Shown: piece by piece, positions 1,193 through 7,795 of the stretch
Numbering within the stretch: position 1 is the stretch's first letter
Layout: every line of letters starts with the position of its first letter
Notes under the pieces: generated by a model
The model's database searches: none
Told to the model about the DNA's origin: nothing
Seen by the model: only the letters and a program-made list of their open reading frames with translations
Program-made: the position numbers and the translations under genes
Assembly (NCBI RefSeq): GCF_016278385.1
Contig: NZ_JADQBY010000013.1
Coordinates: 1-64,000 of the forward strand
Direction of reading: 5' to 3'
Source of the DNA: Methanolobus sp.
GTDB taxonomy: Archaea > Halobacteriota > Methanosarcinia > Methanosarcinales > Methanosarcinaceae
DNA length: 64,000 nt

Positions 1193-3643
1193 TCATCTAT
1201 GGAAGATTAAGTCACTATGGTCCAGCAGGTCATACAACCTCACCTTTATCAGGTCTGTGATAACAAAAGCCACCAGTGCATACAGCCACACGATACCTGC
1301 AAGTTTCCAGCCAATTGGCGATATATAGAAACCATAAACCACAACGAGAGTTGCCAGGAACTTTGTGCCTATTGTTGACCAGAACAGGATACCGCTTGGC
1401 CTGATAGACCAGAAAGGACCTCTTGTACGGGCAAGGAATATCGTCAGGTGTCCTGCAACTGCAAGCTTTAGGAATATAAAAGACTGCAATACACCCTGAC
1501 TGAGATTGAGGACATTCAACCCTATGTAAAAGATTGTAAAGGAAGAAATTACACCTATAATTCCCAGGAAAGTTGCCATACTCAAGACTTCCCTGATGTT
1601 CCACTTTTCCGGCATATTGGAATATTTCACATTATCATAGGCTATAGCCATGATAGGACCATCATTGAACAGTGCAAGTAACACTATCATGATGGCGGTC
1701 ACCGGATAGAAATTAAACGCAATGATAGAAACTGTGATGAAAAACAGGACTCTCACAGTCTCAGCTATTCGGTAAATGGAATAGCTCTTCATGCGCTGGA
1801 AAATTTTGCGACTCTCTTTGATGGCATCAATGATCACTGAAAGTCCCGGAGTTGTAAATACGATGTCTGCAGCAGACTTTGCGGCATCTGTAGCTCCGAA
1901 AACGGCAATTCCTGCATCAGCTTTCTTCAGAGCAGGAGCATCATTGACACCATCCCCGGTCATACCAACAATGTGCCCTTTTTTTTGGAGAAGCTCGACT
2001 ATTCTGTATTTATGTTCCGGAAACACCTGGGCAAAACCATCTGATCTTTCAATTAGATCCTGTGCCTGAAGATCAGTTTTGCCTTCAAGCTCCGGAGCAC
2101 TTATGATATTCGTACCCATATCTATCTGACTGGCAATCTCCTTTGCAATTGCAACGTGGTCACCAGTTATCATCTTAATATCAACGCCCATGGAATTAGC
2201 AGTCTTAATGGTCTGAGCTGAATCTTCATGAGGTGGATCATACAGACCAATGAGTCCTACAAAGCTGCATGTTCCATTATCCTCACACTTTGCCACACCC
2301 AGCGGACGATAACCTTTAACTGCAAGATCATTTACACTCTTTTCCACCTTCTCTGTTATCATTTTCTTATTTGTGGACATGTCAAGAATGACCTGCGGCG
2401 CTCCCTTGATAACCTTAAAGTGCATGCCTTCAGGACTTTCGACACTGGCCTCCGTATGTTTTATTACAGGATCGAAAGGCTTGAACTCTGTTATTTTATA
2501 GTCGTCCAGCTTTTTTGTTGAATCTTCCATGGAACTTATTTTTCTGAAGACAGCATTATCGATGGGATCATTATCCTCTTTCCTCGATGCAAAAGCACTG
2601 TAGATTAAGAGGTCTTCATCTGTAAAACCATCAAAAGGAATAAGCTCTGATAAAGTCAATTCGTTCTTTGTAATTGTACCTGTTTTATCTGAACACAATA
2701 TGTCCATACCTGCCATCTCTTCAATTGCCACGAGTTTACTGACAATCGCACCTTTTTTGGCAAGTTCGGTTGCGCCTACGGCCATAGATACTGACAGAAC
2801 AGCAGGTAGCGCAGCAGGTATTGCTGCAACCACCAGAACAAGAGCGAATTGAAGAGTATCCGGAAGACTTTCGTGCCTGAATATAGCAACCATGAAAACT
2901 ATGGCTACCAGTCCGGCAGCAAGGAATATCAGGTAATCTCCTATCTTTACGATTGCTTTCTGGAAATGACTCTGTGTCTTGACATCTGCAAGCAGTTCTG
3001 TGGTTTTACCAAAAAAGGTATTCATCCCGGTGGCAAATACTAACGCATTCATTTCACCTTTCTGAATAATGGATCCGGAATATGCAATATCTCCTAAAGC
3101 TTTGTCTACCGGAAGTGATTCTCCTGTCAGGGCGGATTCATCCACCTGAAGATAATCACCATCAATAAGTTTAACGTCAGCAGGAACAATATCTCCTGAA
3201 CGTAAGCGGACAATATCTCCGGGAACAAGTTCTCTGGAAGCCATTCCTTTCCAGTCTTCATCCCGTAATACTCTGGCCTGCAAAGCCATTTTCTTTTTTA
3301 GCAATTCAATGGCATTATCAGCCTTATTTTCCTGCCAGAACCCAACCACAGCATTAAGGAGCAACAATATTGAGATAATGATGAAATCTCCCCAGTGTTG
3401 TATGATTGCCGAAAGGATAGCAGCAATTTCAATCATCCAAGGAATAGGGGCCCAAAAATAACCGATGAATTTTTGAAACGGATTGGTCTTCTTTTCAATA
3501 AGCTCATTGTAGCCATATTTCTGAAGACGCTCACCAGCTTCAGCATCAGAGATGCCCCCTATGCTGGAATCTAGTTTTGTAAATAGCTCATCGATATTTA
3601 GCTCTTTTACATTTCCAATTGTGTGTGATGCAGGTTCTTCCAT
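1193..3643 (-). CDS. P-type H+-ATPase (plasma-membrane P3A type)
   Basis: The 816-residue protein is a cation-transporting P-type ATPase. Visible landmarks are the actuator loop motif TGES (about residue 173), the phosphorylation site CSDKTGTITKNE with Asp319, the nucleotide-domain KGAP motif, and the hinge GDGVNDAPALKKADAG. There are four N-terminal-side and about six C-terminal membrane segments. It lacks the N-terminal metal-binding CXXC domains and CPC motif of copper pumps, so it is not a CcoI/CopA-type ATPase. The overall pattern matches P3A proton pumps, known in yeast, plants and some methanogens. The start at 3643 (MEEPASH) was chosen because GGGAGA precedes it and the family begins there. 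It lies 22 bases downstream of the CcoP-like gene, so it is probably cotranscribed with the oxidase. Proton export is inferred from family, not shown. Confidence 0.88.
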   Translation of the reverse strand: MEEPASHTIGNVKELNIDELFTKLDSSIGGISDAEAGERLQKYGYNELIEKKTNPFQKFIGYFWAPIPWMIEIAAILSAIIQHWGDFIIISILLLLNAVVGFWQENKADNAIELLKKKMALQARVLRDEDWKGMASRELVPGDIVRLRSGDIVPADVKLIDGDYLQVDESALTGESLPVDKALGDIAYSGSIIQKGEMNALVFATGMNTFFGKTTELLADVKTQSHFQKAIVKIGDYLIFLAAGLVAIVFMVAIFRHESLPDTLQFALVLVVAAIPAALPAVLSVSMAVGATELAKKGAIVSKLVAIEEMAGMDILCSDKTGTITKNELTLSELIPFDGFTDEDLLIYSAFASRKEDNDPIDNAVFRKISSMEDSTKKLDDYKITEFKPFDPVIKHTEASVESPEGMHFKVIKGAPQVILDMSTNKKMITEKVEKSVNDLAVKGYRPLGVAKCEDNGTCSFVGLIGLYDPPHEDSAQTIKTANSMGVDIKMITGDHVAIAKEIASQIDMGTNIISAPELEGKTDLQAQDLIERSDGFAQVFPEHKYRIVELLQKKGHIVGMTGDGVNDAPALKKADAGIAVFGATDAAKSAADIVFTTPGLSVIIDAIKESRKIFQRMKSYSIYRIAETVRVLFFITVSIIAFNFYPVTAIMIVLLALFNDGPIMAIAYDNVKYSNMPEKWNIREVLSMATFLGIIGVISSFTIFYIGLNVLNLSQGVLQSFIFLKLAVAGHLTIFLARTRGPFWSIRPSGILFWSTIGTKFLATLVVVYGFYISPIGWKLAGIVWLYALVAFVITDLIKVRLYDLLDHSDLIFHR

Positions 3644-3665: not shown

Positions 3666-3947
3666 TTACATGGACATATTGCTAAACTCACCCCAATGAG
3701 CTGCAAAATATGCAATGGTCCAAACCAGCATTATAAAGTAAAGTACATAAAGGAAAGTTGTGATAGGACCATGAGATTCGGCAATTATTCCACCAAATTC
3801 CTCTGCATGGGAATTTGCATCTTTCAGAGAGTAGTGATCCTGGTTCTTTGCGCTCAGCCATACCAGTACCAAACTTGAGAGTACTATGAGAACGGTTATC
3901 CATACTAAAGAGTTCACATAGCTTGCATATTCCAAGGTGAAACTCAT
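3666..3947 (-). CDS. CcoP-like membrane subunit without heme domains
   Basis: The 93-residue protein has two predicted membrane segments (about residues 14-32 and 62-82) joined by a short polar loop reading AEEFGGIIAESHGPIT. In cbb3 oxidases the N-terminal domain of CcoP (FixP_N) also has an acidic EF-GI-E...P motif just before an aromatic LY.LY...W..AY helix, and this small protein shows that pattern. It has no CXXCH, so it would provide only the membrane anchor, while the two cytochrome c domains normally found on CcoP are fused to the main subunit upstream. Its ATG overlaps the ccoS stop by four bases (ATGA), indicating translational coupling. The CcoP relationship is pattern recognition; membrane topology and operon position are directly visible. 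Confidence 0.6.
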   Translation of the reverse strand: MSFTLEYASYVNSLVWITVLIVLSSLVLVWLSAKNQDHYSLKDANSHAEEFGGIIAESHGPITTFLYVLYFIMLVWTIAYFAAHWGEFSNMSM

Positions 3948-4135
3948 ATTTTCTCCCCCTGATGATTATTTGTTTCACTCCTATTTGACATTTCGTCAGG
4001 TATCTCCAGGATCCTGTATTTTGCTTCCTCGATATCTGTGAACTGTCCGGTTCTAATTCCCCATATCAGAAAACCAAGGAAAATAAGGAATAATGAAAAT
4101 GCTGTGATGAGCATTGCCAGATTATATTCATCCAT
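3944..4135 (-). CDS. ccoS: CcoS-like cbb3 oxidase assembly protein
   Basis: This 63-residue protein has one N-terminal membrane helix (about residues 7-28) followed by the sequence IRTGQFTDIEEAKYRIL. The CcoS/FixS family is defined by a single helix followed by a (V/I)RSGQFDDLEGPAYRIL-like block, so the match is close over the diagnostic region. In bacteria CcoS is needed for cofactor insertion into, and activity of, cbb3 oxidase. It starts only 4 bases after the stop of the large oxidase gene and overlaps the next gene. The hydrophilic C-terminal tail (SNRSETNNHQ) is unremarkable. Its presence is independent support for calling the upstream gene a cbb3-type enzyme rather than another heme-copper oxidase. 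Confidence 0.82.
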   Translation of the reverse strand: MDEYNLAMLITAFSLFLIFLGFLIWGIRTGQFTDIEEAKYRILEIPDEMSNRSETNNHQGEKI

Positions 4136-4139
4136 ATCA

Positions 4140-6995
4140 TCAGCTCCTCATATTTCTTGCATAGTTACTTTCGTACAATGGTCCCCATTTTGCATTGTAG
4201 TCATCCGGTGTGGCAAAGTGTTGGATGTAGAATATCGCCATGTACATCTCATCATCACTTAGAGAATACTTCCATGGAGGCATATTCGTAGTTTCCACGC
4301 CCTCCTTAACTTTCCAGACGTACTGTCCATAGTACTTGAAATCAGCACCTGATTCTGTGAAATTTGCAGGTTCCGGATCAATGTATCCTCCAGAGCTTAG
4401 AATAGAGGCAACACCATCTCCCTGTCCGCCCTCACCGTGACACTGTGCACAGTACAAGTTGAAAATCATCTGTCCCTTCTCGAACTGGTCCTGAGTACCT
4501 TCAATAGGCGGCACGATATGGGTCTGATTTGAAAAATTAATAGCTTCACCATCAGATACATCACCACTGACCGTCCTTATCGATCCTGTTGTAAAACTCA
4601 TTTCATAGAGATTTATCTTCCATATCTCAGTTTCATTGAGACTTAGTTTCCAGCTTGGCATTGCCGTACCTGGCACACCCTCGCTTACTCTCCAGAAATG
4701 ATATGAATCGCCTGTTTCAGGCATGTAGCTCATGATTCTTTCGTGAAGATTGGCGGGCTGGGTTACAACATGTCTTGCATATGGACCCTGGGCATTTCCT
4801 GAACAACCATGACATGCAAGACAACGTTCCGTGTAAGTTTTCTTACCTTCTTCAAAGATAGCTGCAAACTCTGCCCCTGTTTTTTCGTCTCCTGTATATG
4901 TCTGATTACTGGAATTATAATTCTGCATCGCAACAGACATAGAATCGGCAAATGGTTGCGTTTTATCTTGATACTCATAAGGTACTTCCGGATGGAAACT
5001 CATTACAGTAAGGTTATTTGTACCGAGGTTCTGGATATATGCAACCAGGGAATCCAATTGCGTATCTGAAAGGAATCCGAAAGGTGGCATAATGGAACTC
5101 GGACTGGTTGTTCTTGCATCCGTGTCATGAAGATAATGCCACTCAGTTGGTCTCATACCGCCTATCTGCGATAAATCCGGACCAGTACGTTCTGTTCCCA
5201 GAAGATGAGGAGAATCATAATAATAATCTCCCTGCTCAGATATTCTTCCAATAGCCCAGTCCTGAGGTCTTACAAATTGTGAATGACAGTAGAAACAGCC
5301 CATATCTGTGTATATTTCCCTTCCCTTTGCTTCTTCTATCGTATATGGATGAGCTATATCCGTGGCATTCACAGTATCAAGATTAAGTGCTGGCATGGCA
5401 ACGACCATCCAGGTCATGAGAAGGAAAAGAGCCAGACCACCCACCACTATAACAGGCATACTCATGGCATGCTGAGACCGTTTCTGCAACTTAGAATGTG
5501 GCCTTGAACTTTGTTCGGGAGATATACTGAAAATATCTTCTTCAACATGGGGTTCTTTTGAATGTGTAAAGGTCAGCAGTGTATTATATGCAAAGACATA
5601 CCCTGCCAGTACAACCATTCCTCCACCCATGGCTCTGGTAACATACCAGAACTGGAGGAGCTTTAATACAGGAGCAACAGTGATATTCTGGAACCAGGCT
5701 GAATTGGCGACCAGTCCTGCTATGGTCATGGATAGAAAAAAACTGGTAAAACCAATAAGTGCAAGCCACCAGCTGATACTCATAAGCCTGTCACTGTATA
5801 TTTTTGTCCGGGTTATTTTAGGTATCAGCCAGTACATCATTCCGATTGCTAGAAATCCGAATCCTCCGAGTATTGCCAGATGAGCATGTCCTACTGTCCA
5901 CTGGGAGAAGTGCAAGAATGAGTTTGTCCCCCTGAGTCCCTGAAGACTTCCCTGTACAGAAGTGAGAACGTAGAAAAAGAATCCTGTTACAATGAATCTG
6001 AATGGGATGTTCTCTGTAAAAATGTTCCATGAACCTCTGAGCGTCATTCCCAGATTTACTGCAAATGTAACTACAGGTACTAACATCAAAATACTCATAA
6101 CAACTGCAATAGTCTTCACCCATTCAGGGATTGCAGTTTGAAGTAAATGATGGCCTCCAACACCTGTATAGAAAAAAGCAATGGTGAAGAAACTGATCAC
6201 AGAAAGGAGATGACTGTACAGAGGCCTATTTATGATACGTGGGACCGCATAATACCATGTACCTATTCCAAGGGTGGTAAACCAGAGCCCCAGGACATTA
6301 TGGCCGTAGTACCAGTTAAATATAGAATCCGTAATTCCTACCAATGCTCCCGATGGAGGTCTCCACATGACATTACCGATGAAATAGACTATAGGGAACC
6401 AGATGAAAGTGCCTGTGTAGTACCAGGTTGATACATAGAGTTTTTTCTCGGTCCTTCGCCCAAAAGTCGACAATATATTGTACAATATCATCAACAATGT
6501 CACCATAATCAGAACATCAATTGACCATGGAAGTTCTGCATATTCCCTTCCCTGAGTATTTCCAAGAAACAGGATCATTGCTATACCAGTCAAAAGAGCA
6601 AGATTCCATAAAATCGCAGAAAGTTTTGTAAGTCTGGCACTATAAATGGGAGTATTGACCAGCCTCGGAATGGCCCAGAACATCCCGCCTATCAGACCAG
6701 ATGAAACAAAACCAAAAAGTACACCGTTAACATGAGCAGGCCTTATTCTGCCAAAGGTCAAAAAAGCTGCGTCGCCTAAAAAATACGGCTGGAAGAACTT
6801 AATTGCCAGTATGAACCCAAGTGTGGCAAATATCGGGAACCATATAAGTGATCCCAAAAACCAGTATTTTACAGCATCGTCGCCTTCGAGGAACTTATCC
6901 TTGGCAAGCTCGTTTCTGTTATCATTATCTTTTATTTCAGTTCCATCTTGAGCAGATAATTCGCCTTCTACTCCCCCACCGTCGTTAAATTCCAT
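4140..6995 (-). CDS. ccoNO: cbb3-type cytochrome c oxidase, CcoN-CcoO-CcoP heme domains fused in one chain
   Basis: The 951-residue membrane protein would reduce O2 to water. Residues 40-475 form a CcoN-type core with about 12 helices. His88 (RPAHVNG) and His372 fit the low-spin heme b ligands, His370 (VGHAH) the heme b3 ligand, and His232 (YYGHN), His282 and His283 (GGHHLL) the CuB ligands. Tyr276 is 44 residues after His232 and 6 before His282, as in the cross-linked Tyr of Pseudomonas cbb3. After a helix at 511-534 comes a CcoO-like domain with C567-C570-H571 (CFYCHSQFVRPQ) and Met636. Two more cytochrome c domains follow (C725-C728-H729 with Met779; C849-C852-H853 with Met905), equal to the usual CcoP heme complement. 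An AGGAGGT site lies 8 bases before the ATG. Normal enzymes have three separate subunits. A cbb3 oxidase is not something I know from methanogens. Confidence 0.95.
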   Translation of the reverse strand: MEFNDGGGVEGELSAQDGTEIKDNDNRNELAKDKFLEGDDAVKYWFLGSLIWFPIFATLGFILAIKFFQPYFLGDAAFLTFGRIRPAHVNGVLFGFVSSGLIGGMFWAIPRLVNTPIYSARLTKLSAILWNLALLTGIAMILFLGNTQGREYAELPWSIDVLIMVTLLMILYNILSTFGRRTEKKLYVSTWYYTGTFIWFPIVYFIGNVMWRPPSGALVGITDSIFNWYYGHNVLGLWFTTLGIGTWYYAVPRIINRPLYSHLLSVISFFTIAFFYTGVGGHHLLQTAIPEWVKTIAVVMSILMLVPVVTFAVNLGMTLRGSWNIFTENIPFRFIVTGFFFYVLTSVQGSLQGLRGTNSFLHFSQWTVGHAHLAILGGFGFLAIGMMYWLIPKITRTKIYSDRLMSISWWLALIGFTSFFLSMTIAGLVANSAWFQNITVAPVLKLLQFWYVTRAMGGGMVVLAGYVFAYNTLLTFTHSKEPHVEEDIFSISPEQSSRPHSKLQKRSQHAMSMPVIVVGGLALFLLMTWMVVAMPALNLDTVNATDIAHPYTIEEAKGREIYTDMGCFYCHSQFVRPQDWAIGRISEQGDYYYDSPHLLGTERTGPDLSQIGGMRPTEWHYLHDTDARTTSPSSIMPPFGFLSDTQLDSLVAYIQNLGTNNLTVMSFHPEVPYEYQDKTQPFADSMSVAMQNYNSSNQTYTGDEKTGAEFAAIFEEGKKTYTERCLACHGCSGNAQGPYARHVVTQPANLHERIMSYMPETGDSYHFWRVSEGVPGTAMPSWKLSLNETEIWKINLYEMSFTTGSIRTVSGDVSDGEAINFSNQTHIVPPIEGTQDQFEKGQMIFNLYCAQCHGEGGQGDGVASILSSGGYIDPEPANFTESGADFKYYGQYVWKVKEGVETTNMPPWKYSLSDDEMYMAIFYIQHFATPDDYNAKWGPLYESNYARNMRS

Positions 6996-7255: not shown

Positions 7256-7795
7256 ATGAAATATAAATTAATTCTTGTATTGTTCTTAGCAGCGATAATG
7301 TTGACAGTGGCACCTATGGCATCAGCAAAATCAAGTTTTATGAGTTCTTTCAACAATTACTATGATACCGGAGACACCAGGCTTGATTCATGTGCAATCT
7401 GTCACTCAGGTCCGAATGGTGGTTCTTTGAATTCTTATGGAAGAGCATATGGGGGAAATTATGCGTCAATTGAAGATCGTGATTCAGATGGTGATGGATT
7501 CAGCAACCTGGATGAGATAAATGCCCTGACTTTCCCGGGTAATGCCAATGATTTCCCCGAAATTGCAGCTGAACCTGTAGTTGAGGCTATACCTGAACTC
7601 ATATCTGAAACACCAGTCGAAGAAACAGTAGACGATCAAAACATGGAAGAGCCAATTGTTGATGAAACTCAGGAAGAAACAACAATTGAAGAGCAAAGTG
7701 ACGAAGCAACAACTGAAGAGCAATCTCCAGGGTTTGAAGTTATTCTTGCAATTGCCGGAATTTTTTCAGTAGCATATCTGAAAAGACGGGTATGA
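7256..7795 (+). CDS. Secreted monoheme cytochrome c with EF-hand-like motif and PGF-CTERM anchor
   Basis: The 179-residue protein has an N-terminal signal peptide (about residues 1-24, ending near ASAKS) and one heme c site, CAICHSG, at about residue 46. A calcium-binding DSDGDGFSNLDE motif follows near residue 80, a combination common in small bacterial cytochrome-like proteins. Residues 105-155 are a Glu/Thr-rich low-complexity stalk. The end reads SPGF, a hydrophobic stretch, then LKRRV, which fits the PGF-CTERM signal recognised by archaeosortase A. The mature protein should therefore be lipid-anchored on the outer membrane face. It is transcribed divergently from the cbb3 oxidase, so it is a plausible electron donor to that enzyme. 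The donor role is inference; the heme site and sorting signal are visible. Confidence 0.85.
   Translation: MKYKLILVLFLAAIMLTVAPMASAKSSFMSSFNNYYDTGDTRLDSCAICHSGPNGGSLNSYGRAYGGNYASIEDRDSDGDGFSNLDEINALTFPGNANDFPEIAAEPVVEAIPELISETPVEETVDDQNMEEPIVDETQEETTIEEQSDEATTEEQSPGFEVILAIAGIFSVAYLKRRV

Follow-up and report, generated by a model that had tools for sequence, protein, structure and literature searches.

In a 64,000-nucleotide stretch of a Methanolobus sp. genome (contig NZ_JADQBY010000013.1, positions 1 to 64,000; hereafter the window) we found a gene cassette that, judging from its sequence, probably encodes a C-family (cbb3-type) O2 reductase with its catalytic core and all three c-heme carriers in one polypeptide, for which O2 removal would be the likeliest use. 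The novelty lies in the arrangement of ordinary parts together with an unexpected host, and as sequence it is well supported; the archaeal methanogen as host is the more surprising part of the observation. The cbb3 oxidases have been regarded as bacterial enzymes (Ducluzeau et al.). In the open papers on Methanolobus or Desulfosporosinus with cbb3, or on ccoNOP fusions, we found no description of the one-chain protein.

Domain structure and integrity of the fusion gene

The fusion gene (4140..6995, minus strand) has an ATG start and encodes 951 residues without an internal stop. Its catalytic core (CcoN, residues 41-480) is followed by the CcoO part, an anchor helix with a mono-heme domain (about 502-700; C567/C570/H571 and M636), heme domain 1 (about 713-803; C725/C728/H729 and M779) and heme domain 2 (about 834-931; C849/C852/H853 and M905), the three CXXCH motifs starting at C567, C725 and C849. 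Pfam searches placed COX1 at 41-459 (275 bits, above its cut-off), FixO at 518-692 (116.8 bits against a cut-off of 29.6, identifying a mono-heme CcoO/FixO domain), and cytochrome c domains C-terminal to FixO, the best of these at 837-926. The Pfam domains and CXXCH positions bear out the first-pass annotation, which had placed CcoN, CcoO and two further CXXCH domains in one chain. All three CXXCH motifs and the candidate axial ligands M636, M779 and M905 were invariant in 12 homologues.

A search of PDB sequences with the fusion returned cbb3 CcoN chains on top (3mk7 first, 2.5e-66), and a fold comparison of its predicted model with CcoN chains gave TM scores of 0.84-0.85 on the target. Since the AlphaFold model (mean pLDDT 60) was weak in the heme domains, we used the core fold alone. 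We read the fusion as having 12 predicted membrane helices in the CcoN part and one in the CcoO part (502-541), and there was no hydrophobic anchor in the region holding C725 and C849. The CcoN equivalog TIGR00780 scored 271.8 bits, below its cut-off of 583, and TIGR00781 (CcoO) also scored below its cut-off. The earlier assignment of the C725 and C849 domains as the two CcoP domains could not be established: TIGR00782 (CcoP) gave 40.6 bits (cut-off 180), and the closest solved relative of the two domains was the generic diheme cytochrome 6h5l (50.6 bits, CcoP giving 22-27 bits). In place of a separate, membrane-anchored diheme CcoP, the heme domains lie in the fusion. The two C-terminal domains may be diverged CcoP domains, or other cytochrome domains may have replaced them.

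We also considered that the fused frame might be a sequencing or assembly artefact, a concern raised in the first-pass annotation, or a decaying gene, and find this scarcely credible. The window copy offers it no support, a true deletion remnant being found in another genome (G004, see below), whereas frames of 879-985 residues with three CXXCH motifs were intact in 12 independent genomes, closed ones among them (including G019 in one contig and G005 in two contigs), and a dN/dS of about 0.05 within Methanolobus (0.05-0.07) indicated purifying selection. At the level of sequence this refutes an artefact or decay.

Active site and proton path

We mapped residues of the fusion onto P. stutzeri CcoN and judged invariance over the 12 homologues; the P. 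stutzeri residues named here are assigned the functions generally known from the 3mk7 work. The CuB ligands H207/H257/H258 correspond to H232/H282/H283 in the fusion, the heme b3 ligand H345 to H370, the heme b ligands H347 and H60 to H372 and H88, and E122/E125 to E151/E154, while the active-site tyrosine Y251 corresponds to Y276, six residues ahead of the CuB histidine pair; every one of these was invariant. The fusion has the core traits of the C family, namely the CcoN fold, three CuB histidines and a bis-His heme b. Since every catalytic ligand is retained, along with the active-site tyrosine of cbb3 enzymes, we read the fusion as an O2 reductase, with cofactor loading and O2 reduction as predicted properties.

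Reduction of NO under nitrosative stress as the main activity seems to us quite improbable. Nitrogen oxides have been reported as substrates of C-family enzymes (PMC8780969), and NorQ/CbbQ AAA and VWA proteins are encoded upstream of the cassette in three carriers. Against this, the fusion keeps the active-site tyrosine, which our NorB controls lacked, and has none of the glutamates that NorB carries near its FeB site; moreover CbbQ was present in 27 of 27 Methanolobus genomes, with or without the oxidase, and so is not part of the system.

The proton path of the fusion differed from the classical one at two positions in all 12 fusions, E323 of P. stutzeri being replaced by Gln348 and Y237 by His262, while Y223, S240 and Y317 (P. 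stutzeri numbering) were kept (Y248, S265, Y276 and Y342 being the kept residues in fusion numbering). The fusion thus has no K-type path with the entry glutamate (E323), a residue that is a trait of classical C-family members and no absolute criterion of the family. The two replacements are predicted to alter the proton-uptake path, which counts against the O2-reductase reading.

Host and distribution

Methanolobus species (Methanosarcinaceae) are methylotrophic methanogens and strict anaerobes, and the host genome is a 2.88-Mb, 100% complete Methanolobus genome. GC and third-position GC of the fusion were near those of neighbouring genes and the flanks hold archaeal genes, indicating that the window is not a foreign contig.

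The intact three-heme chain was found in 12 genomes, seven archaeal and five bacterial (genomes or MAGs), forming a clade common to methanogens and distant anaerobes, which, like the archaeal host, the first-pass annotation had missed. Among the archaea, the chain was carried by four Methanolobus genomes, by one further genus of Methanosarcinaceae (G223, 84%), by an ANME-2 MAG (69%) and by a member of the same order (G058, about 55%); the bacterial carriers (54-60%) were labelled Syntrophaceae, Thermoleophilia, Clostridiales, Desulfosporosinus and Actinobacteria. PF00115 occurred in four of the 27 Methanolobus genomes, each time as the fusion gene, and the fusion protein in five of 345 genomes sampled from the phylum (E-value of 1e-20 or less), in agreement with the earlier suggestion that the architecture is rare; matches in Bacteroidota keep one CXXCH and a separate CcoP. 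A contig scan of genomes recovered seven complete fusions plus one truncated at the end of its contig; as its queries were short peptide patterns taken from the fusion protein of the window, it may miss distant members. A search of viral contigs gave no relative.

Cassette partners and neighbouring genes

The fusion gene is accompanied on the same strand by genes for a CcoS/FixS-like cbb3 maturation protein of 63 residues (3944..4135, minus strand; Pfam FixS 39.3 bits, cut-off 23.1; TIGR00847 25.7 bits, slightly below its cut-off of 28.35) and for a 93-residue two-helix membrane protein (3666..3947, minus strand; 4 bp overlap with the CcoS stop). The CcoS/FixS gene, which the first-pass annotation left unnamed, sits between the other two, and this order was kept in 12 of 12 loci. 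In profile comparisons the 93-residue family matched a rhizobial small protein (hhalign 94.9%, score 43.8; shuffles 12.6 +/- 2.6, maximum 20.2), and when pooled with the rhizobial proteins it matched the CcoP N-terminus (hhalign 77%, score 33.7; shuffles 15.7 +/- 3.1, maximum 25.1); alone it matched CcoP more weakly (hhalign 38%), and it is the latter half of the small protein that resembles the CcoP membrane segment. The pooled comparison supports the CcoP-like nature earlier proposed for this protein as a separate CcoP membrane anchor, and it is probably a detached CcoP-type membrane segment. In G223 the small anchor protein (L061:6957-7661) is lengthened to 234 residues by several extra predicted membrane helices.

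About 22 bp downstream of the cassette, on the same strand, lies a gene for a P-type proton-efflux ATPase of about 816 residues (1193..3643, minus strand; TIGR01647 1083 bits), with 3643 as the likely start (the listed TTG ORF begins at 3715). It is probably co-transcribed with the cassette in Methanolobus, adjoining it in four of four Methanolobus carriers; it also occurs in five non-carriers, and the bacterial cassettes lack it. As part of the oxidase system the ATPase is not supported, since it occurs without the oxidase. This ATPase bears on another reading of the fusion, as an energy-conserving microaerobic terminal oxidase that passes electrons from methyl oxidation to O2 and pumps protons, and not as a detoxification enzyme. 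Its position after the cassette and the retention of most proton-path residues favour such a role, but the entry glutamate is glutamine and Y237 is histidine across the clade, the ATPase is found without the oxidase and is missing from bacterial cassettes, and there are strict anaerobes among the hosts; we think this reading unlikely, if less so than NO reduction.

Several neighbours were considered as electron partners of the proposed O2 reductase. A PGF-CTERM surface protein with one CXXCH (7256..7795, plus strand), divergent from the cassette, is a possible electron partner, and we rejected it as a specific one because it belongs to a multi-copy family found across Methanolobus. A cupredoxin gene adjoining the cassette in G223 encodes a candidate donor. 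A Met-rich mono-heme cytochrome (L111:4534-5178) was tried as a co-occurring donor and rejected, being present in 16 of 23 oxidase-free Methanolobus and missing from the carrier G019. This membrane-anchored cytochrome with a Met/Gly-rich stretch (L111:4534-5178; within L112:3260-6101) lies in G223 beside a His-rich 712-aa gene, which may encode a metal ATPase. A copper link is possible.

The NorQ/CbbQ and VWA proteins were rejected as dedicated maturation factors on the genus-wide occurrence of CbbQ; NorQ/CbbQ AAA is a core Methanolobus gene, beside a 1140-aa VWA protein where examined (L051:13099-17436). Two cytochrome c assembly genes (PF01578) were present in the host genome, which therefore holds the machinery needed for heme attachment. 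No CcoG scored above the cut-off in the host genome, and there was no copper ATPase within the cassette; both results weigh against the O2-reductase reading. In the Clostridiales MAG, cytochrome c assembly genes for ResB and a CcsA-type protein lie downstream of the fused cassette (L021:10031-12236).

Comparison with known oxidases

With the P. stutzeri CcoN1/O1/P1 enzyme (3mk7) the fusion shares the CcoN fold, the heme and CuB ligands, the active-site tyrosine, the CcoO domain and a CcoS-like assembly gene. P. stutzeri cbb3, however, has three subunits where there is one chain here, core identity is only about 30%, and the fusion differs in having Gln for E323 and His for Y237, its archaeal host, the absence of a canonical CcoP and the failure to find CcoG.

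CcoN-CcoO fusions are known from Bacteroidota/Chlorobi (PRK14485/NF011053), as in Melioribacter roseus Mros1513 (PMC3534657). These likewise have CcoN and CcoO in one chain, but they are about 705-760 residues long, have one CXXCH and a separate CcoP, and fall on a distant branch of the tree; the fusion scored 443 bits against the Bacteroidota CcoNO family (PRK14485), far from membership at its cut-off of 1080.

The same domain order as in the fusion was found in rhizobial plasmid operons (Phyllobacterium zundukense NZ_CP017941, Sinorhizobium meliloti CP140933), in which the second protein is a CcoO-c-c protein with CXXCH at 74/285/414. The Phyllobacterium operon continues with a FixS-like and then a small CcoP-N-like gene, in the order of the fusion cassette, and S. 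meliloti retains the small gene. In contrast to the fusion, CcoN is a separate gene in these operons (4 bp overlap with the next), identity is about 28%, and a copper-type ATPase and TauE/SafE are encoded nearby. These unusual cbb3 operons (L116:2746-6222, L117:2737-6213) differ from fixNOQP, and their annotation goes no further than naming subunits I and II.

A plasmid variant of Azoarcus sp. KH32C (NC_020548; L062:3806-7296) is 35% identical over N+O and, like the fusion, has Gln in place of E323 as well as the FFY...GGHH motif; it differs in having separate ccoN and ccoO genes and a 195-aa single-heme cytochrome, and its operon includes a gene for an SCO protein. Cytochrome bd of methanogens is also an O2 reductase in Methanosarcinaceae, but belongs to an unrelated protein family and is quinol-type. 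It was found in five of 27 Methanolobus (G001, G005, G007, G016 and G019) and was absent from the window genome; G005 and G019 have both cytochrome bd and the fused cbb3.

Origin, spread and loss

In the CcoN tree the 12 fusions formed one group (97/99), within which G058 branched first and the other archaeal sequences came together (100/99). Long branches leave the order of the fusion clade, the Azoarcus variant, and the rhizobial and classic types unsure. It is plausible that a rhizobial operon of CcoN and CcoO-c-c represents the step preceding the full fusion, and a single fusion event from an operon like it probably gave rise to the one-chain gene. Horizontal transfer probably spread the fusion among anaerobes.

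In G004, a one-contig sister Methanolobus with window-like flanks, about 3.1 kb had been deleted, leaving a scar (L103:6567-6842) where the first codons of the fusion run directly into the latter half of the gene for the small anchor protein. G010 keeps the flanking genes but not the cassette. The cassette is accessory, and its patchiness in Methanolobus is partly due to loss; its presence in only four of the 27 genomes and its deletion in a sister indicate that it is dispensable, a further point against the O2-reductase reading.

Proposed function and implications

We propose that the 12 CcoN helices and one CcoO helix would lie in the membrane, with the three heme c domains on its outer face. 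A presumed donor, which may be an outer-face cytochrome, a cupredoxin or a carrier linked to methanophenazine, would feed electrons into the C-terminal heme domains, and these would pass by way of the CcoO heme and heme b to the heme b3-CuB site, where O2 would be reduced. CcoS would aid assembly, and the 93-residue protein would stand in for the membrane portion of CcoP/CcoQ. For a strict anaerobe, the likeliest role of such an enzyme would be to clear trace O2 at the membrane, whether or not it also translocates some protons.

A broader proposal, to which we would give about an even chance, is that the 12 single-chain enzymes constitute a separate C-family subfamily specialised for anaerobes and common to methanogens, other archaea and anaerobic bacteria, with a rewired proton entry (Gln for Glu, His for Tyr) and a built-in three-heme wire, acting as a self-contained membrane O2 scavenger that needs only CcoS and a small anchor. 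The one-chain enzyme occurs in cultivable methanogens (Methanolobus vulcani) and offers a natural minimal enzyme for study. The fusion clade supplies natural variants at the proton-entry residue, and the fusion makes O2 handling by strict anaerobes testable.
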